Assembly (NCBI RefSeq): GCF_900215575.1
Contig: NZ_OBEJ01000002.1
Coordinates: 372,001 to 436,000 of the forward strand
Length of the DNA stretch: 64,000 nt
Source: Natronoarchaeum philippinense
GTDB lineage: Archaea; Halobacteriota; Halobacteria; Halobacteriales; Natronoarchaeaceae
Direction: 5' to 3'
Below the pieces are notes generated by a model. The model was not told where the DNA came from and searched no databases. It worked only from the letters and a program-made list of their open reading frames with translations. This document shows positions 34,651 to 51,644 of the stretch, in pieces (the stretch's first letter is position 1; every line of letters begins with the position of its first letter). Both the position numbers and the translations under genes were made by a program.

Positions 34651-35199
34651 CTAGGAAATTAGTGTTGCTGTTTCGATACGAACTGTCGAGCGCACTGTTT
34701 GGCGCTCGGTCGTCACTCGCAGATCGAAGACCGCGCCGAGCACGTGCGTCCGACCTGCTCGGTCCTGCACGACGACGCCGTCGATCGCTTCGCACGCGCC
34801 GAACTGCCGATCCGGACCGCTCGGACAGCGAGCGTCGGCCCACGCCGTCGCGGCTGACGTGTTGTACGCGATTCCGCGGACGACGCCGGCTCGCAGCCGG
34901 GAGGTCCGGAGCGTCTCGATTCGCGGGCCGAGCTGATCGTTGACTGCGTCGACGGCGGCCTCGCGCTCGTTCCACGCATAGTTGCTGGGGACGCCTGCCG
35001 CTGTGTCGTGTACTGCCCGGTCGAGCGCTCGGGACACGTCGCCGTCCGATCGGTCTGCCACACCAGCGGCGTCGACGGGCGCCGCACCGAGTTGCACGTA
35101 CGCCAGCGCGATCGGTGCCAGCCCCACCGCAATCACTGCAGCGGCGACGAGCACCAACTGTGCGCGCGCCGCTGTGTCCCCATCTCTTGCTGCGATCAT
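34651..35199 (-). CDS. Pilin-like single-anchor protein, pilus operon gene 7
   Basis: 182-residue protein. A short polar N-terminus (MIAARDGDTAARAQ) runs straight into one hydrophobic segment (LVLVAAAVIAVGLAPIALAY), then an exported domain. This is the shape of archaeal pilins and minor pilins. The exported part contains two cysteines (ARCPSG, FGACEAI) that could pair. The ATG at 35199 overlaps the previous stop by 4 bp. Function within the pilus or secretion machine is unknown; it may be a minor pilin or assembly factor. Confidence 0.72.
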   Translation of the reverse strand: MIAARDGDTAARAQLVLVAAAVIAVGLAPIALAYVQLGAAPVDAAGVADRSDGDVSRALDRAVHDTAAGVPSNYAWNEREAAVDAVNDQLGPRIETLRTSRLRAGVVRGIAYNTSAATAWADARCPSGPDRQFGACEAIDGVVVQDRAGRTHVLGAVFDLRVTTERQTVRSTVRIETATLIS

Positions 35200-35603
35200 G
35201 CATACCACACTCTGAGGATCACATCGCCATACTGCGTCGTCACCGTCGCGGTACCGTAGCTCACGCCGGCCGGGCGCTGGTAGCCGACCGACCCGTGTGT
35301 GGTCTGGACCTGATACAACAGATTGTCCGGTAGTAGCCGGTCGAGACGGCGATCAAGCGACGCCCGCTCGCGCTCGAAACTCTCGGCATCTCTGGCAATC
35401 TCCGAGAGTCGTGTGGCGTCCTGATGACGCGGGGGCTCGCCTGCCAGCACCGTTCCGGCGTCCTCGGCGTAGGCATCGAGCTGTGTCGCGCCGTCGTTGG
35501 GTACGGGGACGCCGAGAGTAAACACCACGGCGATGGCGAGAATCAGGACGACGCCGATGCCTGCCTCGACGACCGGTGTCGACAGCTGCGCACGATCACT
35601 CAT
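35196..35603 (-). CDS. Pilin-like single-anchor protein, pilus operon gene 6
   Basis: 135-residue protein. MSDRAQLSTPVVEAG leads into a hydrophobic helix (IGVVLILAIAVVFTLGVPV), followed by an exported helix-rich segment with a heptad-like charged stretch (ESFERERASLDRRLDRLL) and a final beta region (YGTATVTTQYGDVILRVWY). The N-terminus resembles a class III (prepilin) signal more than a Sec signal, because the hydrophobic part probably stays in the mature protein. It overlaps its neighbours by 8 and 4 bp. Confidence 0.72.
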   Translation of the reverse strand: MSDRAQLSTPVVEAGIGVVLILAIAVVFTLGVPVPNDGATQLDAYAEDAGTVLAGEPPRHQDATRLSEIARDAESFERERASLDRRLDRLLPDNLLYQVQTTHGSVGYQRPAGVSYGTATVTTQYGDVILRVWYA

Positions 35604-36267
35604 CGACGGCGACCTCCAGCAGCGCCTTCTCGGTCTGTTTCGGATAGTACGTCAGCTCGATGTCGCCCGACGCCAGCACACCGTCGGCGTCTACCGATAC
35701 TGTCGCGGTCCGATATCGGCTCGTCGTGACGGCGAACTCGCCGGTCAGTCCCGACTCGTTGTGCCGAACGATCCGCGGGCCGATCCGCATCGTCGTCACG
35801 GTGGCGTTTGCCATCGGATCGACGTACACGTCGACGCGTCCGGTCCGCCGCGGTAGTGTCACCGTCCTATCGGTTCCGTCGAAGGCGTCTGCGACCGTGA
35901 CCGACTGCGTCCGTTCGACCAGCACGAGCCGTTCGATCGAGTAGCCGTCGGCGTCGCCGGTCGCTGCGAGTGTCGTCTCGTTCAGTGTCACGCGGACCGA
36001 GCGTCCGCCGAGGCCGGGTACCGTTGACCGGAGCGCGTCGGCGTCGAACGCTTGGACCGCGCTCGCGTTCAACACGTTCGCCCGCGTCGCCAGCGGACCG
36101 TCGGCGTCGACGAGTCGCTCGGAGACTCCCGCCGCGAGCTGACGCTCAGTCGCGTCGCCGTCGGCGGCCGCGAACGCGCCGTCTGCGATCGCCAGCCCGA
36201 CGACCATCGCCCCAGTCACTGCGACGAGCGCCACGCCAAGCGCCAGCAGGTTCGCCTGCCCGCGCAT
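35596..36267 (-). CDS. Pilin-like single-anchor protein, pilus operon gene 5
   Basis: 223-residue protein from the ATG at 36267. MRGQANLLALGVALVAVTGAMVV is a short basic head plus membrane helix. The exported domain is beta-rich (VRVTLNETTLAATG, TVTLPRRTGRVDVYVDPMANATVTTM, RYRTATVSVDADGVL) with several NxS/T glycosylation sites. Haloarchaeal proteins of this kind are encoded beside PilB/PilC-like genes. It overlaps the previous stop by about 1 bp and the next start by 8 bp, so translation of the group is probably coupled. Confidence 0.72.
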   Translation of the reverse strand: MRGQANLLALGVALVAVTGAMVVGLAIADGAFAAADGDATERQLAAGVSERLVDADGPLATRANVLNASAVQAFDADALRSTVPGLGGRSVRVTLNETTLAATGDADGYSIERLVLVERTQSVTVADAFDGTDRTVTLPRRTGRVDVYVDPMANATVTTMRIGPRIVRHNESGLTGEFAVTTSRYRTATVSVDADGVLASGDIELTYYPKQTEKALLEVAVDE

Positions 36268-36770
36268 CACGACCCCTCGCCTCCGAGGCGGACGACGAGC
36301 CCGTTCGGACTGTCGCGCACTCGCACGTTCGCCGACTCCTGACTGTCCCAGTGACCGTCGACCGTCTCGACTGACTCGGGCAGCGCCAGCGGCGTCTTCC
36401 CGCCGACCGAGGGATGTGGGTGCTCGAGCACGAGCCGGCCGCTCGTGACGCGGATCGTGTACGCCGAACTTCCGATCGTTCGCGGGAGCTCCAGCCTTGT
36501 CGTCGCGTTCACTGCCGTCGCGTTGTGAGGTATCGCTGCACGCAGTTCGGCGCTGGCGTCAGCCAGCGTTCTGTCAGCGACTTCTTGGGCGGCCGCCGAC
36601 CGGTACTCCGGGATCGCACCGGCGTACAGCGTCGTCGTCAGGAGCCCGATGTACAGGATCACGATCCCGGCCTCCAGTGCCTTGCCGACGACCGGGGACG
36701 CGGCGCGAGTCGTCGCCGTGAACGTGCCACCCGAGCGCCGCTTTGCCGGCGGTTGGGATGGCTCAGGCAC
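36267..36770 (-). CDS. Pilin-like protein with RAxSPVVG motif, pilus operon gene 4
   Basis: 167-residue protein. After a basic 20-residue head comes TTRAASPVVGKALEAGIVIL, close to the R-A-x-S-P-V-x-G pattern at the start of mature haloarchaeal type IV pilins. This points to prepilin-peptidase processing. The helix (ALEAGIVILYIGLLTTTLYAG) is followed by a compact exported domain with NATAVNATT glycosylation sites. It is the best pilin candidate of the five. It overlaps both neighbouring genes. Confidence 0.75.
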   Translation of the reverse strand: MPEPSQPPAKRRSGGTFTATTRAASPVVGKALEAGIVILYIGLLTTTLYAGAIPEYRSAAAQEVADRTLADASAELRAAIPHNATAVNATTRLELPRTIGSSAYTIRVTSGRLVLEHPHPSVGGKTPLALPESVETVDGHWDSQESANVRVRDSPNGLVVRLGGEGS

Positions 36771-37515
36771 GGTTCACCTCTAGCTGCATGTCGTGGATGA
36801 TCAAATAGGCCGTTCGGTCGCCGCGATAGGTCGCCACGACGCTCTGGTGATCGTCGCCGGGGAACAGGCGCCCGCTCGTCGACCGAACCGCGCTCTGGGC
36901 ATCGAAGTGGCGCTTCCAAGCGCCCGGCGTCGGCGTCTCGATCGCAACGCGATAAGACCCGTTCCCCAGCGCTCGCCGATCGTGGCTGACGCGCGAGGAC
37001 AGCCTGAGCGACCGGCCTGCGGCCCCGGTCGTCGTCCACTCGCTCGCGTTCAGCTGGGCAGCGCCGACGGCGAGGACGCCGCCGCTCCCCCGCGAGGCCG
37101 TGATCGGTGGCGCTTCGTAGAGCCAACTGTTCCCTGTCCGTCCGCGGACGATGGTCCCAGCTTCGTACGCCACTCGCCGATCGCCCGACTCGTAGACTAA
37201 CGCGTCGACCGCGACGGTCGCCACGACGCCAGACTCGTTGAGCACGCGGAGCGCCCGGTCCTCGGTAGCGATCCGTCCATTGGCGAACGCGACGCGCCCC
37301 TCGTGGTAGCCGGTCGTCTCGGTCGGTTGGAGCGCGCGATCGAACCCATCGGCGACGCTGGCGGCGTCCGCTGTGGCTGCGTTGCTCTCGACAACCGCGC
37401 CGATACCAGCCGTTAGCCCGCCGAGGCCGACGACGGCGATCGCCAACAACAACGCGACGCCGACGACGTTCGACTGCGCTCGGTCGTTCGGGCTGCTGCG
37501 CTCGGATCGGCTCAC
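36763..37515 (-). CDS. Pilin-like single-anchor protein, pilus operon gene 3
   Basis: 250-residue protein. The head MSRSERSSPNDRAQSNVVG followed by VALLLAIAVVGLGGLTAGIG is again pilin-like (R-A-x-S-x-V-V-G). The exported domain is about 200 residues with alternating strands (GRVAFANGRIATEDRALRVL, VVATVAVDALVYESGDRRV) and ends ATYRGDRTAYLIIHDMQLEVN. Large exported domains are usual in minor pilins or tip proteins. Its start overlaps the PilC-like stop by 4 bp. Confidence 0.75.
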   Translation of the reverse strand: MSRSERSSPNDRAQSNVVGVALLLAIAVVGLGGLTAGIGAVVESNAATADAASVADGFDRALQPTETTGYHEGRVAFANGRIATEDRALRVLNESGVVATVAVDALVYESGDRRVAYEAGTIVRGRTGNSWLYEAPPITASRGSGGVLAVGAAQLNASEWTTTGAAGRSLRLSSRVSHDRRALGNGSYRVAIETPTPGAWKRHFDAQSAVRSTSGRLFPGDDHQSVVATYRGDRTAYLIIHDMQLEVNRA

Positions 37516-39404
37516 ACCATCCCACCTACCGAGAACACGGCGTACGCGATCAACACGAGCACGCCGGAGTGCAACAGCGCCTCGTACCGCCCGCGGCTGG
37601 CCGTTCCCGCGAACCAGCCCGAGGCGAGCATCGTCGCTTGGGTCACGATGTAAAACCGGTAACGCTCGCGCGCCGGATCGATACCGCTGGGATCCAGCCC
37701 GACGCCGGCGCTCGATCCCGATACCGCCGAGAGCTGTGCGAACCCGTCGATCACGTAGGCGTCGACTGCGACGACGATGCCGATCACGAGTAGCGCGGTC
37801 GTCCAGCCGACGGTGACGTACACGAGCATTGCGCTCCGCAGCGCTTTCTTTTCGTGATGGAGGCGTCCGACCTCGGTCTGGAGCGTCTCGAAGATGTCCT
37901 CGGTGTCGCCACCGGCGTCTAACGCTCCGGTCACGAGCCCGATCGTCTGGCCAGCCAGCGGCGTCCCGACGCGTTCGACGAACCGATCGAGTGCCGCGGC
38001 GCGCAGGTCTCCCTCGGTCGTTGTGAGGTTGACATTGAAAGCGAGATCATCAACGTCGGCCTGCAATGCACCCAGATCGACATCGGCGGCGACGCGCTCA
38101 ACGGCTTCCGAGAACGGGCGGCCGAGACGGACGTGGCCGGAGACTGCGTGGACGAAGTCCTTGATCTCTCTGTCTTTGGCGTCGTTGATCCGGGCACGTC
38201 GCACCGCGACGAGTCCGACCGGTACCGTGAACGCGACGTACGACAACAAGACGACATCGACGAACTGCACGCCTATCGATGAGAGCGAGGCCCCGACGCC
38301 GAGGCCGATCGGTAGCGAGAGCACGACCGCGCTGGCCGGGTTGCGCGCTGCAGACGTGATCGTCGGTAGGACCCCAGCCGGGACCTCGTACGACGGCTCG
38401 GAGTGGTCTGGCGGCCGAAGCCGCTCGACGAGCCATGCGGCGGCGAGTCCGGTCGAGAGGACAAACACGGCGCTGCCATACACGATCAGTTGCCGCCCGG
38501 TAACCGTGCCGACGGGCGATCCGATAGGTTGCGAGAGACTCGGCGAGAGCACGCTCAACACGGTCGTGATAATGACCATCAGCGACGGCAACACCAACAA
38601 CACGATGAACAGCTCAGCGAGCAGTTCGAGGAACGATTCGGCCCGCTCGCGCGCCCGTCCCTGTTGGTGAGAGAGCATCCGGCTCTCCATACGAAGGTAG
38701 CTTGTCAGCTCCTCGCCACCCTGCTCGGCGTGTTCGCGGAATTTGAGCAGGAACGGCGCTAAGACGTCCCGAGAGGGCGTGTCCCGCGCGACGATCTGAA
38801 GCCCGTGGCTGAGGCTCCCGGTCAGCGTCGCCTTGTTCAGCGCCTTCCGGAACGCCACCGCAGTCTGTCCGTACGCCTCAGTGTTGGCGGCGACTTTTCG
38901 CAACATCGCGCGGCGGTCGTCGCTCCCCGTCGAGAGCACCCGTAAGTACCGAACCGCGCCGGGAAGCGTTCGGTCGATGTCTGTCTGGCGAGCGCTTGCG
39001 ATCCACTGGAGATAGCGCCCGCCGAACCAGATCGTGACGCGCTTGGACGCCGCCGCAGCGACGAGCGCACTCCCGGCGGCGACGGGCGACACCCCCGGTG
39101 TGAGACCACTGGCGACCGAAAGACCCGTTCCGGTTGCCGTGGGAACGACGGAGACCGCAAGCGCCAGTGACGTGACAAACACGCCAACGAACGCAATCCA
39201 CGAGAGGGCGTACACGCGCGAGATGTACACGTCGAAGCTCGCACGAACGTCGGTCCCGCGGTAGGACTGTCTGTCGGCGTCGTGGCGTCTGGCGTCGGCA
39301 TGACGGCCAAATAGCGCGTACAGCGACCGATCGAGCACCGCACCCGGACCGCTGCCGCCGAGCGTCCTGTTGCCGGCGGTCTCGACGGATGTCGGACTAC
39401 TCAT
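37512..39404 (-). CDS. PilC/TadC-like pilus assembly membrane protein
   Basis: 630-residue platform protein of type IV filament systems, with about nine membrane helices and two T2SSF-like cytoplasmic domains. The first domain spans roughly residues 130-245 (TLPGAVRYLRVLSTGSDDRRAML, ELTSYLRMESRMLSHQQGR). The second spans residues about 400-520 (IKDFVHAVSGHVRLGRPFSEAV, LAGQTIGLVTGALDAGGDTEDIFETL). Helices include LFIVLLVLPSLMVIITTVLSVL and ALLVIGIVVAVDAYVIDGF. The ATG at 39404 overlaps the ATPase stop by 8 bp. It should sit in the cytoplasmic membrane and couple the ATPase to pilin polymerisation. Confidence 0.9.
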   Translation of the reverse strand: MSSPTSVETAGNRTLGGSGPGAVLDRSLYALFGRHADARRHDADRQSYRGTDVRASFDVYISRVYALSWIAFVGVFVTSLALAVSVVPTATGTGLSVASGLTPGVSPVAAGSALVAAAASKRVTIWFGGRYLQWIASARQTDIDRTLPGAVRYLRVLSTGSDDRRAMLRKVAANTEAYGQTAVAFRKALNKATLTGSLSHGLQIVARDTPSRDVLAPFLLKFREHAEQGGEELTSYLRMESRMLSHQQGRARERAESFLELLAELFIVLLVLPSLMVIITTVLSVLSPSLSQPIGSPVGTVTGRQLIVYGSAVFVLSTGLAAAWLVERLRPPDHSEPSYEVPAGVLPTITSAARNPASAVVLSLPIGLGVGASLSSIGVQFVDVVLLSYVAFTVPVGLVAVRRARINDAKDREIKDFVHAVSGHVRLGRPFSEAVERVAADVDLGALQADVDDLAFNVNLTTTEGDLRAAALDRFVERVGTPLAGQTIGLVTGALDAGGDTEDIFETLQTEVGRLHHEKKALRSAMLVYVTVGWTTALLVIGIVVAVDAYVIDGFAQLSAVSGSSAGVGLDPSGIDPARERYRFYIVTQATMLASGWFAGTASRGRYEALLHSGVLVLIAYAVFSVGGMV

Positions 39405-41754
39405 CGGCGGCCTCGCTGGGACCGGTGCTGGCCCGTTCGACGGTCGCCGCCTCGTTAGTCCGAAGGTCAGCGAGGAATTCGAACAGTTCCTCGAAGTCGT
39501 TCGCACCGTCGCGCCGTAGATACCGAACGTACCGGTGTTTGCGGTGGAACTCCGCTTCGACGGCGCCGACCGGCCGGTCGGTTCGCCGGGCCAAAGCGTG
39601 AAACACGCGCATGTTGCACTCGCGCTCGTCGTCAGCACCCCACTCGCCGCCGAACTCGCCGCCGTCGGGGGCGGCCTGTCGCTCGTCGGTTGCAGTCTCG
39701 TTGAGCACCGTGGCTCTGCTCCGGTCTGACCAGTCGATGCTCGCCGCTTCGACCGTCGTCTCCAGTTTCGGGTGCGCGTACTCGAACGTGAACCGGCCGG
39801 ACTGGTCTGTCCCACCGATCCGGTTCCAGTAGATTTCGTCGCCCTGTTTTTTGACGACGCCGCATTCGCCGTCGACGTGTTCGAACTCGTCGGCGGTGAG
39901 AAACTCCACGAGGTCGCCGACGTACCGATCGCCGCCGACGTGTCGTGGGAACACGACCAGATCGAGTTCGCGCAACAGGTACGGGGCCATTCCCTGCTCG
40001 ACGACGCGGTTAACGAGCTTTTCGACGTCTTCTGCGTGGGTCGTGCCGATGATACCGTGACCGGTGTTGAGCGACTCGGCGAACGTCTCGAAACTCGCTG
40101 GCGTGTTGATCTCCGCGAGCACCTCGACATCAGGATTAAGATAGTTACATTCGGTCATCAGATCCGCCATCGTCACCTGTTTGTACTCGCTCTCGTGGTC
40201 TCTGGTTGTCAGCGAGACGCCAGTTTCGTGCGGTAGGCGCACCTCTCGCGATCCTTCGTCGATGCTGATCGGACGGTCGCGGAAGGGTATAAATGGCATA
40301 TGGGCATTGAGTAATGTCGTTTTCCCGACACCAGTCGGACCGGAGAACAACACGACGCCGTGGTGCTCGTACAGCATCCACAGCAGCGCGACCATCTCTT
40401 CGGAGACGCTCCCGCGCTCCAGCAGGTCGATCGGCGTCATCGCCTCGGGAGATTGCTTTCGGATCGAGATGTGCGGGCCGTCCTCGCTGATCACCCCCAA
40501 CGCTACCGCACAGCGGATCGTCACGTCGTCCGGAACGCCCTCCGGAGCTAGATTGACCTTCGCGCTGGGATTCGATGCGTTCAGTTCGGTGCCGTCGGCG
40601 GCCGCGAGTTGGGTGACGACGTTGATAAACGTCGACTCGTCCTCGAACGCGAGATTCGTCGGCATTCGCTCGTCGTGACCGACACTCCCACGGGGCAGCA
40701 CCTTGATGCGCTCGCCGACGCGGTTGGCCTCGATGTCTTCGAGGTGGCGGTCCCTGATCGGGACCGTGAGCGTCCCCTCGCCGACGTAGTCGCGGAGCAC
40801 GTAGTACACGAGATCAGAGAGCCTGTCCGCCGAGTACCGACCTTCGATGGGTGGGACCGCGAGATCGTACTCCGCGAGGGCACGCTGCAGTCGGAACCGC
40901 GTCGCGTCGACCCACGCTCGCGTCCGGCGCGCGGTGAGTTGCCGGGAGAGAAACGTTCGGGCGCGACTACGAACGAACGACTTGCGGTCGTCGACCAGTC
41001 CGTCGACGTTGGCCTCCCAGATTCGTTCTTTACACTCCTCGACTAGGGTCTCGTCACCGGGCAGCAGGTCCGGCTCCTGAACGGCGTATTTCGTCGTGAA
41101 CGAGTCCCTGCCGAGCAGATGCTCCCGATAGATGACGACCGGAACTTCGAACTCCTGAAAGCTGACGGTGTAGCTGGTTAGTCGCTCGCTGACGAACCGC
41201 TCGATGAACTTCGGTTCGGCGGGAAACGTCGTTCTCGCCGGTGCGTAGTTCTCGGTGTGGACGACGAGCCGATCGTCGGCAGTGTCGGCTACTTCGATAC
41301 GATCGTCGACTGCCAGCGGCGTCAGTTCGCCCAGACAGCGTAGGTCACGGAACGCACGGTAGCCCACCCGTCGGCGCGCAGCCGCCGAGCAGGACACCAG
41401 CCGGTCGATGATCTGCTCGTACTTGGGATCGAACCCCTCGTTCATCCGTTCGACGGTCCCCTCGCGGGTCAACGGCCGCGCGAGGGCGGCGTCCTCGAAG
41501 TAGTCCCTGATCGTTTCGAGTGCAACCACGTCGGTCGCCGAGAGCGGCGGTTCGCGCACCTCGTACTCGAACGCTTCCTCCCGATCGTAGATCGTTGCGA
41601 CGACGCCGGGATAGAGCTCGTACTGCTCACGAACGTCGGACGCATACCACGCTTCGGGATCGTCGGGCGGCAGTGGCGGCGGCACAGCGTCGCCCTCTTG
41701 GGCGATCGACTCGCGCGGCGTCGTCGGAACTTCCAGCGACGGCCCATCGGTCAT
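39397..41754 (-). CDS. PilB/TadA-like type IV pilus or secretion ATPase
   Basis: 785-residue VirB11/PilB-family motor. About 300 N-terminal residues hold a family-specific domain. The ATPase core follows: Walker A FSGPTGVGKTTLLNAHM (about residues 470-486), Asp box SIDEGSREVRLPHE, Walker B-like VEVLAEINTPASFETFAES, His box IGTTHAEDVEKLVNR. The C-terminus has a short cysteine-less acidic region. It is the first gene of a seven-gene operon (ATPase, platform, five pilin-like proteins). The start at 41754 lies about 25 nt downstream of a TATA element enclosed in an inverted repeat, indicating a leaderless, regulated transcript. Confidence 0.92.
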   Translation of the reverse strand: MTDGPSLEVPTTPRESIAQEGDAVPPPLPPDDPEAWYASDVREQYELYPGVVATIYDREEAFEYEVREPPLSATDVVALETIRDYFEDAALARPLTREGTVERMNEGFDPKYEQIIDRLVSCSAAARRRVGYRAFRDLRCLGELTPLAVDDRIEVADTADDRLVVHTENYAPARTTFPAEPKFIERFVSERLTSYTVSFQEFEVPVVIYREHLLGRDSFTTKYAVQEPDLLPGDETLVEECKERIWEANVDGLVDDRKSFVRSRARTFLSRQLTARRTRAWVDATRFRLQRALAEYDLAVPPIEGRYSADRLSDLVYYVLRDYVGEGTLTVPIRDRHLEDIEANRVGERIKVLPRGSVGHDERMPTNLAFEDESTFINVVTQLAAADGTELNASNPSAKVNLAPEGVPDDVTIRCAVALGVISEDGPHISIRKQSPEAMTPIDLLERGSVSEEMVALLWMLYEHHGVVLFSGPTGVGKTTLLNAHMPFIPFRDRPISIDEGSREVRLPHETGVSLTTRDHESEYKQVTMADLMTECNYLNPDVEVLAEINTPASFETFAESLNTGHGIIGTTHAEDVEKLVNRVVEQGMAPYLLRELDLVVFPRHVGGDRYVGDLVEFLTADEFEHVDGECGVVKKQGDEIYWNRIGGTDQSGRFTFEYAHPKLETTVEAASIDWSDRSRATVLNETATDERQAAPDGGEFGGEWGADDERECNMRVFHALARRTDRPVGAVEAEFHRKHRYVRYLRRDGANDFEELFEFLADLRTNEAATVERASTGPSEAADE

Positions 41755-41766
41755 GGAATCTATGCG

Positions 41767-41797
41767 CTATTCCACAGTATTTAAATTTGTGGAATAG
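41767..41797 (-). promoter_or_regulatory. Pilus-operon promoter: TATA box enclosed by a perfect 10-bp inverted repeat
   Basis: CTATTCCACA (41767-41776) and TGTGGAATAG (41788-41797) are exact reverse complements, separated by the 11-bp AT-rich GTATTTAAATT. That spacer lies 23-33 nt upstream of the ATPase start codon, the position of the TATA element. A dimeric regulator bound here would cover the TATA and BRE sites. No regulator gene is adjacent. Confidence 0.75.
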
Positions 41798-41835
41798 AGG
41801 TGCAATTATACTGCTAGGCAGATCATCACAACTCC

Positions 41836-42669
41836 TCAGCCCAGACTAATATCCAGATACAGCATCCCGACGACGCCGGCCATCAGCCCCAGCGTAGCGA
41901 TCCGCTCGTAGCCGCGAGTGTGGGTTTCGGGAATGATCTCGTCGGAGATGACAAACAGCATCGCGCCGGCGGCAAAGCCCATCGCGTAGGGCAACAGCGG
42001 CTCGACGGCGCTGACCGCAAGCGCGCCGAGCACCGCTAGCGGGATTTCGACGGCGCCCGAGCGCACGCCGGCAAAGACCGCGTAGGCGCGCCGATCCAGT
42101 CCGGCGTTGATCGCAGCGACCGAAACGGCGAGCCCCTCGGGAATGTTCTGGATGCCGATCGCAAGCATCAGCGGGATCGCGCTCGCCACGTCGCCCGACC
42201 CGAAGCCGACGCCGACAGCCAGCCCTTCGGGCATGTTGTGGAGCGTGATCGCCAGCACGAACAGGACGACGGGCGTCAGCCGATCGTCGTCGAGCGGGAG
42301 CGACTCGGTCGGATTAGCGCCGTCGGCTCGCTTCCCGCCCGTCAGCAGGTAGTGGGCGTGGGGCACCAGCCCATCGGCGCGGTCGAGAAAGGCGGCGCCG
42401 AGTGCGATGCCGACGAGCGTCGGGATGGGATTCCCATCGGAGTACTGCTCGATGCCGGGGATGATGAGGCTGGTAAACGCCGCGGCGAGCATCACGCCGG
42501 CCGCGAAGCCGAGCGCGCCGTCTAGTGCGCGCCGCGAGGGGTCGCGCCAGACGAGCACCAGCGACGCCCCGAGCAGGTTCAGCGTCGCAATGACGAGGCC
42601 GCCGACCAGTCCCTGTATCACCGGGTTGTCACCGGCGACGCCGACGAACAACTCGACTATCGAAACCAT
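41836..42669 (-). CDS. ZIP-family divalent metal transporter
   Basis: 277-residue membrane protein with eight hydrophobic helices. The metal-pathway helices are intact: ITLHNMPEGLAVGVGF (helix IV, HNxPEG) and IGIQNIPEGLAVSVA (helix V, here QNIPEG with Gln in place of His). A moderately acidic, His-poor loop (GGKRADGANPTESLPLDDD) links helices III and IV. ZIP proteins usually import Zn2+, Fe2+ or Mn2+. Its 3' end is 81 bp upstream of the pilus operon start on the same strand, but the pilus operon has its own promoter. Confidence 0.9.
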   Translation of the reverse strand: MVSIVELFVGVAGDNPVIQGLVGGLVIATLNLLGASLVLVWRDPSRRALDGALGFAAGVMLAAAFTSLIIPGIEQYSDGNPIPTLVGIALGAAFLDRADGLVPHAHYLLTGGKRADGANPTESLPLDDDRLTPVVLFVLAITLHNMPEGLAVGVGFGSGDVASAIPLMLAIGIQNIPEGLAVSVAAINAGLDRRAYAVFAGVRSGAVEIPLAVLGALAVSAVEPLLPYAMGFAAGAMLFVISDEIIPETHTRGYERIATLGLMAGVVGMLYLDISLG

Positions 42670-42744: not shown

Positions 42745-44706
42745 TTACGTTGCTCGGGGGAGTTCGACGTGGACGATACTTTTCTCGTCGGAGTTCGCTT
42801 CGAGCTCGACATCGCCCTGCGAGAGCGTCACGACCAGATACACCAGCCACAGCCCCATTCCGATGCCGTGGTCGAGGGGCGTCACTTCCTGTTCGCCGGT
42901 GAGGATTTGCGCTTCTTCCGGAGGGATCTTCGGCCCTCGATCGGTGATCCGAACGCTGACAGTATCGTCGCCGTCGGGGGAGATTTCGACGCCGACGGTC
43001 GGTGCGTCGCTTTCGTCGTGGATGATCGCGTTGACCAGCAGCTCGTGGAGCGCGTGTTCGAGGGCTGGAATCGCACGCACGTCCCCGATCGTCTCGTCGG
43101 GGCGGGTGACCGACAGTTCCGCTTCGGGGTACTCCTGTCGGATGTCGTCGACCACGCGGTCGACGGTAGCGTCGAGGTCGAGCCGCAACGGCGGCGGTTG
43201 TTCGTCGAGCAAGCGTACGATCTCGCGGTGTTTGTCCATCACGTCGACCAGTCGATCGATCTCCTCGACGATCACAGCCGCCATCTCGGCGACTTCGCCG
43301 TTCGTACTGCGGGCGACTTCGTCGGCGTACCCGCGGATGATCGTCAGCTGATTCGAGAGGTTGTGACGCAACACGCGGTGCAGCACTTTCAACTGGCGCG
43401 TCGCCTCCCTGTACTCGGTCACGTCTCGCTGGAAGCCGACGTAGTTGACCACGGCGCCGTCTTCGTCTCGCACCGGCGCGATCGTCACCCGATTCCAGAA
43501 CTTGCTGCCGTCTTTGCGGTAGTTCCGGAGTTCGACCGTCGTTGCTTGTTCCTCCTCGATCGCGGCCCGGAGCTCGGCGACCGGTTCCGCCTCGGTGTGG
43601 TCGCCCTGCAAGAATCGGCAGTTGCGGCCGAGCGTCTCCGCCTTGCTGTAGCCAGTGATATCGGTGAACTGGTCGTTGACGTAGCTGACGGCGTTGTCCG
43701 GGTGATTGGCGTCGGCGAGCGTGATGCCGATCGGCGCCTCGTCGATCGCGCGATTCTTGCGCTCCAGTTCGGCTTGGCTGTCCCTGCGAGCTGTGATATC
43801 TCTCGTGATCCAGAGGCGGCCGTAGTGGGCGCCCGAACTGCCCGTGACCGCCGTCGAGTACCACTCGACCGTCCGGCCATCGTCGAGTTCGAGCACGCCG
43901 CTGCTGGTCGTCCGCGGCGTCTCGAACAGTTGCTCGATCGCTTGTCGAAAGGCGTCCTCGTCGGCTACGGACGATCGGATGGCAGCGAAGACCTCGTCGA
44001 CGCTCCCATCGTTGAGCAGCTCCGTCGAGACGCCCCAGAGCTCCCGAAATCGATCGTTGTACGAGAGAATGTCGCCGTCGTCGTTGACGACGAGAACGCC
44101 GTTGGGAAACGCCTCGTGCTGGGCTTCCAGCAGCGACTGGCGAAACTCCAGTTGCTCGCGCTGTGCAGCGCTTTCTCTGTTGCGCAGCGCGCGATGAACG
44201 ATGTCGGCGAGATCGCCGGCGAACTGCACGTCGTCGCCGGTCCACTCGCGGGTTTCACCAACGTGCTCGAAGCAGACGACGCCGACGACTTCCCCTTCCG
44301 ATCGGAGCGTCGCATCCAGCAGCGAGGCGATGTCGTTGGGCCCGAGATAGTCCGCGACGAGTTCGCGCGTTCGCTCGTCGGAGTGTGTATCGGTAACGGC
44401 GATCGTCCGGTGGCTCTTGAGGGCCTGAAAGTACCGCGAGTAGTTGCCGATGGCGAGTTCCCTGCCCGAGGAGTGCTCGCCGGTCTCGGCGTCGAAGTGA
44501 TCCACACAGCGCATCACCGTGATGTCGTCGTCGAACAGCCAGATGTTGACCCGGGAGACGCCGAGGATTTCGACCGCGGCCTCCGTGATCTGTCGGGCGG
44601 CAGCCTCGAAGTTGCCGTCGACGACCGCCTCGTTCGTCGTCAGCTCCAGCAGCGTCTCCTGTCTGCGACGAAGGCGGTGATGGTCTTCGCTGCGGTCCCG
44701 ACTCAT
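42745..44706 (-). CDS. GAF-PAS-LOV sensor histidine kinase (likely blue-light receptor)
   Basis: 653-residue soluble sensor kinase. Order: GAF (about residues 25-180), PAS (195-305), LOV-type PAS (320-440), HisKA-like helix pair with VLRHNLSNQLTIIRGY (His near 448) and HATPase (HELLVNAIIHDE, RITDRGPKIPPEE, GIGMGLWLVYLVV). The LOV domain has the flavin-adduct motif GRNCRFLQG (C363), RNYRKDGSKFWN and NYVGFQRDVT, which supply the flavin-contacting Asn, Asn and Gln. There is no receiver domain. GATTTATC about 25 nt upstream supports the ATG at 44706. It is divergent from a DoxX gene. Light sensing is inferred from the intact motif. Confidence 0.9.
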   Translation of the reverse strand: MSRDRSEDHHRLRRRQETLLELTTNEAVVDGNFEAAARQITEAAVEILGVSRVNIWLFDDDITVMRCVDHFDAETGEHSSGRELAIGNYSRYFQALKSHRTIAVTDTHSDERTRELVADYLGPNDIASLLDATLRSEGEVVGVVCFEHVGETREWTGDDVQFAGDLADIVHRALRNRESAAQREQLEFRQSLLEAQHEAFPNGVLVVNDDGDILSYNDRFRELWGVSTELLNDGSVDEVFAAIRSSVADEDAFRQAIEQLFETPRTTSSGVLELDDGRTVEWYSTAVTGSSGAHYGRLWITRDITARRDSQAELERKNRAIDEAPIGITLADANHPDNAVSYVNDQFTDITGYSKAETLGRNCRFLQGDHTEAEPVAELRAAIEEEQATTVELRNYRKDGSKFWNRVTIAPVRDEDGAVVNYVGFQRDVTEYREATRQLKVLHRVLRHNLSNQLTIIRGYADEVARSTNGEVAEMAAVIVEEIDRLVDVMDKHREIVRLLDEQPPPLRLDLDATVDRVVDDIRQEYPEAELSVTRPDETIGDVRAIPALEHALHELLVNAIIHDESDAPTVGVEISPDGDDTVSVRITDRGPKIPPEEAQILTGEQEVTPLDHGIGMGLWLVYLVVTLSQGDVELEANSDEKSIVHVELPRAT

Positions 44707-44782
44707 TGCACGCAGTTTCACACTCCAGATAAATCACTCTTCTTGCAGTCTCGTTTGTTCCGCCGGGTCGCTCAAACTTCAT

Positions 44783-50247: not shown

Positions 50248-50847
50248 TCACTCCTCGGGCAACAGCACTGACTGAACGTACTCTTCTGCAGTCTGTCTCG
50301 CGGTCGCCAGTGCGTCGGCATCGTCGAGCACGACCGCCCGTGTGCGAGCGCCGTCGACGATCGTCATCAGCGCCGCGGCGGTGTGTTCGGCATCGACATC
50401 GGCGAACACGCCCTGCGAGATGCCGTCGTCGATCACGGTTCTGAGCATGTACTGGACGTACTCGTCGTTCTGCTCGAACCGGTCGGCGAACGCCTCCTTG
50501 TACGGGGCCTGACTGCGCATTTCGAGGATGGCGACCAGCAGATCCTGATGCTCCTCGACCTCGACGAGCAACTGATCGAGCAACAACGTCAGGCGCTGTT
50601 CGGGGTCGGTCCGTTCGACCTCGTGGATCGTGTCGACGAACTGTTCGAGGACGAAGTCTAAAAATGCCGCCAGCAGATCGTCTTTCGTGTCGTAGTGGTA
50701 GTGTACTGCGGCGGTCGATTTTCCGTACTCCTCGGCGATACGTTTGATAGTCAGATCGGCGTACCCGTGTTCGCGGAGCGCACGATAGGTCGCGTGCATG
50801 ATCTCCTCGTCGGGGTCGGAAAACGAGCGATCCGGCGGGTTGGCCAT
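50248..50847 (-). CDS. TetR-family transcriptional regulator
   Basis: 199-residue repressor. The N-terminal HTH is IMHATYRALREHGYADLTIKRIAEEYGKSTAAVHYHYDTKDDLLAAFLDFVL. The helical C-terminal ligand domain includes LLVAILEMRSQAPYKEAF. It is a close paralogue of the TetR at 51042-51644 (same HGYADLT, VHYHYD and QAPY motifs) and is divergent from it. The ATG at 50847 is supported by a TATA-like TTATTTGATC 22-31 nt upstream; a longer frame start was rejected. Two 20-bp direct repeats lie just beyond the TATA element. Confidence 0.9.
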   Translation of the reverse strand: MANPPDRSFSDPDEEIMHATYRALREHGYADLTIKRIAEEYGKSTAAVHYHYDTKDDLLAAFLDFVLEQFVDTIHEVERTDPEQRLTLLLDQLLVEVEEHQDLLVAILEMRSQAPYKEAFADRFEQNDEYVQYMLRTVIDDGISQGVFADVDAEHTAAALMTIVDGARTRAVVLDDADALATARQTAEEYVQSVLLPEE

Positions 50848-50868
50848 CGTGTAACGCGTCGGCCCTGG

Positions 50869-50920
50869 ATCAAATAACAGTTGTGACCCGCTCGCCAGCA
50901 TTGTGACCCATTCGTCAGCG
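50869..50920 (-). promoter_or_regulatory. tetR promoter with two 20-bp direct repeats upstream of TATA
   Basis: GTTATTTGATCC (minus strand, about 50869-50880) is TATA-like. On its upstream side are two direct repeats starting TTGTGACCC, at 50881-50900 and 50901-50920, identical at 16 of 20 positions. Tandem sites at the BRE side suggest an activator or an alternative operator. They differ from the ACTAACTAGT palindrome. Confidence 0.55.
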
Positions 50921-51008
50921 GCTCGACGCCGCGGTCGAACCGTCGAATCCGGTGCACTCGGGGCGAACTATTCGGGATCAGAGTCACCGTGACTGCGTTC
51001 AAAACGCT

Positions 51009-51029
51009 TTTGACTAACTAGTTAGTAAG
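51009..51029 (+). promoter_or_regulatory. TetR-type operator of the tetR-MATE operon
   Basis: A 21-bp site with a perfect 14-bp palindromic core, ACTAACTAGTTAGT (51013-51026). It ends 12 bp before the ATG of the tetR gene, so it covers the expected transcription start. In reverse complement it matches the site at 49782-49802 at all but one base. Confidence 0.8.
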
Positions 51030-51041
51030 TCGCGTAACGAG

Positions 51042-51644
51042 ATGGACGACACACCGGCCGACGATATTCTGGAAGCGACCTATCACGCGCTGTGCAAGCA
51101 CGGATACGCGGATCTCACGTTACAGCAGATCGCCGCCGAGTCCGAGCGGAGCAAGTCCTCGATCCACTACCACTACGACAGCAAAGACGAGCTGTTCGTC
51201 GCGTTTCTCGATTTTCTCTACGAACGGCGCGCGTCCCAACTCGCGTCGGTCGACGGTGACACGCCCCGCGAACGGTTGGCGTCGCTGCTCGACGCGCTGT
51301 TGTCCTTCGAGGAGACGGCAGCCGACGGCGAGTTCCAGACCGCGATGCTCGAAGTCGCCGCGCAGGCTCCCTACGACGACGCGATCCGGCGGCGGATCGC
51401 CGAGTTCGATCAGTATCTCTTCGAGACCGTTCGAGAGATCATCGAGGACGGCGTCGAGACAGGGGAGTTCGACACCGACCTCGAGCCGGCCGTCGCCGCG
51501 GACCTTCTGACGACGACAGTTCGGGGCGCTCACACGCGACGCGTCGCGGTCGATCACCCGACTGATCGCCTGCACGAGACGATGGATCAGTTCGTCGAGG
51601 ATCATCTCGTCGCAGCCGGTGCAGTCGAGGAGGTCCGCGGATGA
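51042..51644 (+). CDS. TetR-family repressor of the MATE operon
   Basis: 200-residue TetR protein with HTH ILEATYHALCKHGYADLTLQQIAAESERSKSSIHYHYDSKDELFVAFLDFL and a helical ligand-binding C-terminus (TAMLEVAAQAPYDDAI). Its stop overlaps the MATE ATG by 4 bp, so repressor and pump are co-transcribed, the usual layout for an inducer-responsive efflux unit. A perfect 14-bp palindrome lies just upstream of the start. It probably binds that site and the similar site at 49782-49802. Inducer unknown. Confidence 0.92.
   Translation: MDDTPADDILEATYHALCKHGYADLTLQQIAAESERSKSSIHYHYDSKDELFVAFLDFLYERRASQLASVDGDTPRERLASLLDALLSFEETAADGEFQTAMLEVAAQAPYDDAIRRRIAEFDQYLFETVREIIEDGVETGEFDTDLEPAVAADLLTTTVRGAHTRRVAVDHPTDRLHETMDQFVEDHLVAAGAVEEVRG

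Follow-up and report, generated by a model that had tools for sequence, protein, structure and literature searches.

The window analysed here, a stretch of 64 000 nucleotides, contains a perfect 10-bp inverted repeat that lies over the TATA box of a seven-gene pilus or secretion operon; this TATA box is kept in orthologous promoters and the arms around it are absent from relatives. The explanation that we tentatively favour, short of holding it to be probable, is that the repeat is a species-specific single-site operator at which a dimeric repressor would block TBP/TFB. A palindrome that arose by chance or was perfected by mutation is nearly as likely. As a feature the repeat is of a common type; it could at most be a local on/off site and might be coincidental. 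Better established is the conserved, putatively leaderless core promoter (TTTAAAT ~31 nt from the ATG), on which studies of regulation would be more safely based than on the palindrome. Should the repeat be an operator, it would offer a rare lead to how haloarchaeal DUF726x-type pilus/secretion operons are switched on.

The inverted repeat and the promoter it encloses

Reading of the window sequence placed the repeat, CTATTCCACA-N11-TGTGGAATAG with 20/20 symmetry, at 41767–41797, in exact agreement with the sequence and coordinates originally predicted. The plus strand reads CTATTCCACA-GTATTTAAATT-TGTGGAATAG, and the minus strand, which carries the operon, reads CTATTCCACA-AATTTAAATAC-TGTGGAATAG followed by CGCATAGATTCC-ATG. 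On the operon strand the left arm CTATTCCACA (41767–41776) becomes the downstream arm TGTGGAATAG, lying after the TATA box and ahead of the predicted start site, and the right arm TGTGGAATAG (41788–41797) becomes the upstream arm CTATTCCACA, over part of the BRE region. The minus-strand spacer AATTTAAATAC holds the TATA element TTTAAATA (41785–41778, minus strand), the first T of which precedes the A of the ATPase ATG (41754) by 31 nt.

The identity of TTTAAATA as the operon's TATA box, and with it that of the core promoter, is supported by orthologous operons, which keep the element 30–32 nt ahead of the start codon; this bears out the earlier placement of a TATA box inside the repeat. Across the TATA-anchored orthologous promoters, TTTAAAT or CTTAAAT was found at this distance in the family, Halomicrococcus, Haladaptatus, Haloferax and some MAGs; in Natronomonas the element sits at 36 nt with the start that was chosen. 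The same-genus relative (protein identity 84 %) carries AAAATTTAAATA, likewise at exactly 31 nt. Some Halorubrum orthologs, with a GTG start and no clear TATA by automatic choice, were left out of the comparison of arms. Because the enclosed element is the operon's TATA, one arm lies towards the BRE and the other between TATA and start. The 31-nt spacing fits the distance expected for a leaderless transcript with its predicted +1 at the ATPase ATG (41752–41754, minus strand), and 72 % of the protein-coding transcripts of Haloferax volcanii are leaderless (PMC4983044). A purine-rich AAAGAG/GAAAGAG tract follows shortly after the TATA in the orthologous promoters L007–L010, L024, L038, L039 and L041; its position is occupied here by the downstream arm TGTGGAATAG.

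The operon runs from 41754 to 34651 as seven genes on the minus strand, each meeting or overlapping the next, and Pfam confirmed the pilus or secretion operon of seven genes that had been proposed. It opens with a TadA/PilB-like ATPase of 785 aa (39397–41754; T2SSE, E 1.4e-23) and a TadC/PilC-like membrane protein (37512–39404; T2SSF), the likely start of which is the ATG at 39404, overlapping the ATPase stop, in an 872-aa open frame that begins farther upstream. There follow proteins assigned by Pfam to DUF7289 (36763–37515), DUF7266 (36267–36770), DUF7263 (35596–36270), DUF7262 (35196–35603) and, last of the seven, DUF7261 (34651–35208).

The arms in relatives and across the genome

The ATPase was present in 9/9 family genomes, with the ortholog proper in seven, this genome included, and at 29 loci in named haloarchaea, one promoter (L027) being the same as that of family member L042. 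Compared position by position over 14 orthologous promoters, the upstream arm was matched at 1–6 of its 10 bases and the downstream arm at 0–4 of 10. The arms were absent from the same-genus relative, from a further five family members that have the gene and from the other haloarchaea compared, in which the TATA was kept. Around the TATA of the orthologous promoters there was no comparable palindrome (best scores 4–8/10), and the scores of family members did not rise above those of their own shuffles. A partial TGTGG...CCACA around the TATA of L041 scored 7/10, a value reached by 27 % of shuffles, and was rejected; its arm order is the opposite one. The original prediction had counted absence of the repeat from close relatives with the same operon against itself, and such absence was found at the genus level, as far as the data allow. 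The arms are not conserved, and in the same-genus relative the gene upstream is also another one, transporter-like in place of a ZIP transporter; the intergenic DNA has thus been replaced or has diverged, with the core promoter alone remaining.

An order-wide scan of 394 genomes gave matches with two to three mismatches in five other genomes, none resembling this promoter and two of them inside reading frames or touching one; the reversed pattern, run as a control, gave matches about as often. Four matches on viral contigs were dismissed as unrelated, all lying in DNA of 38–43 % GC and three having near-identical flanks, and the 151-nt promoter region had no plasmid match.

By pattern search with up to three mismatches, the 31-mer is single-copy in both the window and the 3.16-Mb genome. 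The 10-mer half-site was found nowhere in the genome beyond the two arms, and there is therefore no regulon. A genome search for both arms with a spacer, suggested along with the original prediction, returned no second promoter site genome-wide, either at fixed spacing with up to three mismatches or at variable spacing (5–17 with ATTCCACA arms, 0–30 with TTCCACA arms). The one other 3-mismatch place for 8-bp arms in the genome (C3:166776) was discarded, as it falls within a 343-aa reading frame; three further 9-mer matches had no same-sequence partner, and the other pilus-type ATPase loci of this genome had no half-site. The half-site check also met a perfect 8-bp inverted repeat, TTCTGTGT-AGTATATTCC-ACACAGAA, at ~1501 of L095 (genome C1:326076).

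How unusual the repeat is

It had been argued that a 20-of-20 symmetrical match is unlikely by chance in GC-rich DNA. This was wrong as put: the window has five perfect 10-bp inverted repeats with loops of 3–20, against 2–12 in 12 simulated first-order Markov sequences, and the symmetry alone is unsurprising because the count falls within the simulated range. The unusual aspect of the repeat is its position over the TATA, not its symmetry. When the TATA was kept fixed and the flanks were shuffled, a perfect 10-bp pair bracketed it in 23 of 150 000 trials (~1.5e-4 per promoter), from which we infer ~0.01 such palindromes per window and ~0.2 per genome, expectations that leave out of account the other kinds of feature that would also have drawn notice.

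The genome background was a 400-kb sample of the 3.16 Mb. The 464 kb surveyed (~404 predicted genes) contained 42 wholly intergenic listings, some of them nested, of perfect repeats with arms of at least 9 bp. Within these 464 kb the repeat was the sole perfect 10-bp one judged to have a TATA in its spacer, a call made by reading the list rather than by a scored scan, with at most one comparable case in the sample. At L090:11404–11440, TTAAAA lies in the spacer of an inverted repeat with 9-bp arms extendable by one base. Elsewhere in the genome, at L085:15404–15441 (C2 ~535.4 kb), there is a perfect AT-rich inverted repeat, TTTAGACAC...GTGTCTAAA, its arms reaching 10 bp when extended; a gene follows after 49 bp.

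Explanations of the repeat

The conserved element is a putatively leaderless core promoter with an A-rich BRE side, the TATA TTTAAATA and transcription beginning at or beside the ATG, and the species-specific palindrome overlies it. If the repeat is an operator, a single symmetric dimer could reach the two arms from the same side of the helix, because their centres are 21 bp apart, equivalent to two helical turns. Once bound, it would shield the BRE and the TATA together with the melting region and would exclude TBP/TFB and RNA polymerase, keeping the operon repressed until its release. Binding of a protein, its dimeric form and repression at the repeat are what we infer; in favour of them are the 20/20 symmetry centred on a TATA confirmed by orthologs, its rarity in the shuffles and in the 464 kb, and an arm spacing that suits a dimer, and against them are the arms missing in relatives, the want of a second site or half-site, the lack of a regulator among the adjoining genes scanned, where regulators with a single target are usually encoded, and the ~0.2 palindromes per genome expected by chance. 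Considered as a member of the archaeal repressor operators that overlap the BRE/TATA, the repeat shows dyad symmetry in its 20/20 arms and brackets a conserved TATA at promoter distance from a predicted start. Its arms are neither conserved in related promoters nor repeated in a regulon, a supporting rather than strictly defining feature that a species-specific single-site operator would equally lack.

That the repeat has no function beyond the core promoter, its arms being coincidental or an imperfect repeat having been perfected by a template-switch (quasi-palindrome) mutation in replication, is a serious competitor to which we give only slightly less credence than to the operator. It accords with the simulated frequency of perfect 10-bp repeats in the window, with the free variation of both TATA flanks among orthologs, and with a repeat that occurs once in the genome and that relatives lack, but it has to accept a 20/20 match centred on the TATA that shuffling produced at the low rate given above. 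An RNA hairpin in the 3′ UTR of the upstream gene, acting in 3′-end formation or stability and overlapping the promoter incidentally, is improbable. The gene in question encodes a ZIP-family zinc transporter (41836–42669, minus strand); on the strand of that gene the repeat starts 38 nt past the stop codon, and its isolated fold has −11.4 kcal/mol (z = −5.8 vs shuffles). However, we disfavour this hairpin because no T run follows the stem on either strand, as an intrinsic terminator would need, and because the fold is unremarkable in its 111-nt context (z −1.5; context folds z −1.4 to −1.5). In addition, the loop is the operon's TATA, and the same-genus relative, with its different upstream gene, has no hairpin at the promoter.

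An operator would have precedents: steric occlusion of the BRE/TATA is one of the two main modes of archaeal repression, and in the haloarchaeal sptA promoter semi-palindromes over the BRE or WW motif are negative elements (PMC6085418). The sptA promoter of Natrinema sp. J7-2 resembles ours in having inverted repeats over core elements (SPS2 over the BRE, SPS3 over the WW), although its arms are of 3–5 bp, flank the TATA on either side without bracketing it and are proven by mutation (PMC6085418), whereas the arms of the putative operator here are of 10 bp and bracket the TATA. Binding of the repeat by an already described regulator of haloarchaeal motility or metabolism, CsmR or TrmB for instance, is very improbable. 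CsmR of H. volcanii does bind a semi-palindrome close to the TATA at motility genes, those of the archaellum, a surface appendage, but its consensus, TATCA-N4-TGATA, lies upstream of the BRE/TATA and in 50/65 peaks (PMC13286277), whereas our repeat has another sequence in a single copy, and no CsmR motif was found on reading 41755–41835. The TrmB operator of the Pyrococcus furiosus malE promoter is likewise a palindrome at the BRE/TATA and represses by blocking the basal machinery, but neither its site, TACT-N3-AGTA, nor the thermococcal TrmB-family TATCAC-N5-GTGATA matches the repeat, and, unlike here, its regulator is encoded beside the transporter operon (PMC4158304). Regulators of this kind bind at dozens to hundreds of places, against the one found here.

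The fuller form of the operator explanation, in which the site was newly acquired and serves a dimeric regulator encoded elsewhere with the pilus operon as its sole target, a lineage-private rewiring of the conserved core promoter, we regard as unlikely. Among the neighbouring genes scanned, no regulator adjoins the operon, as had been noted from the outset; a PAS/GAF histidine-kinase-type protein lies two genes upstream (42745–44721), and the closest transcription regulators form a divergent TetR pair (50248–50901 and 51042–51644) ~8.5 kb away, with a palindrome between them that differs from the repeat. The dedicated switch of the original prediction stands in its TATA box and its operon and is not supported as a switch, given arms absent in relatives, no second site and no regulator tied to it; what survives is a species-specific operator, not distinguished from chance. 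Just upstream of one TetR gene of the pair (50248–51644), the TAACTAGTTAGT-centred palindrome at 51004–51035 is a plausible TetR operator, better placed than the repeat at the pilus promoter. In a Haloplanus MAG (L031), the frame directly upstream of the pilus ATPase resembles, by eye, a Bat-type HTH_10 regulator, and is a possible local regulator of the operon in another genus.
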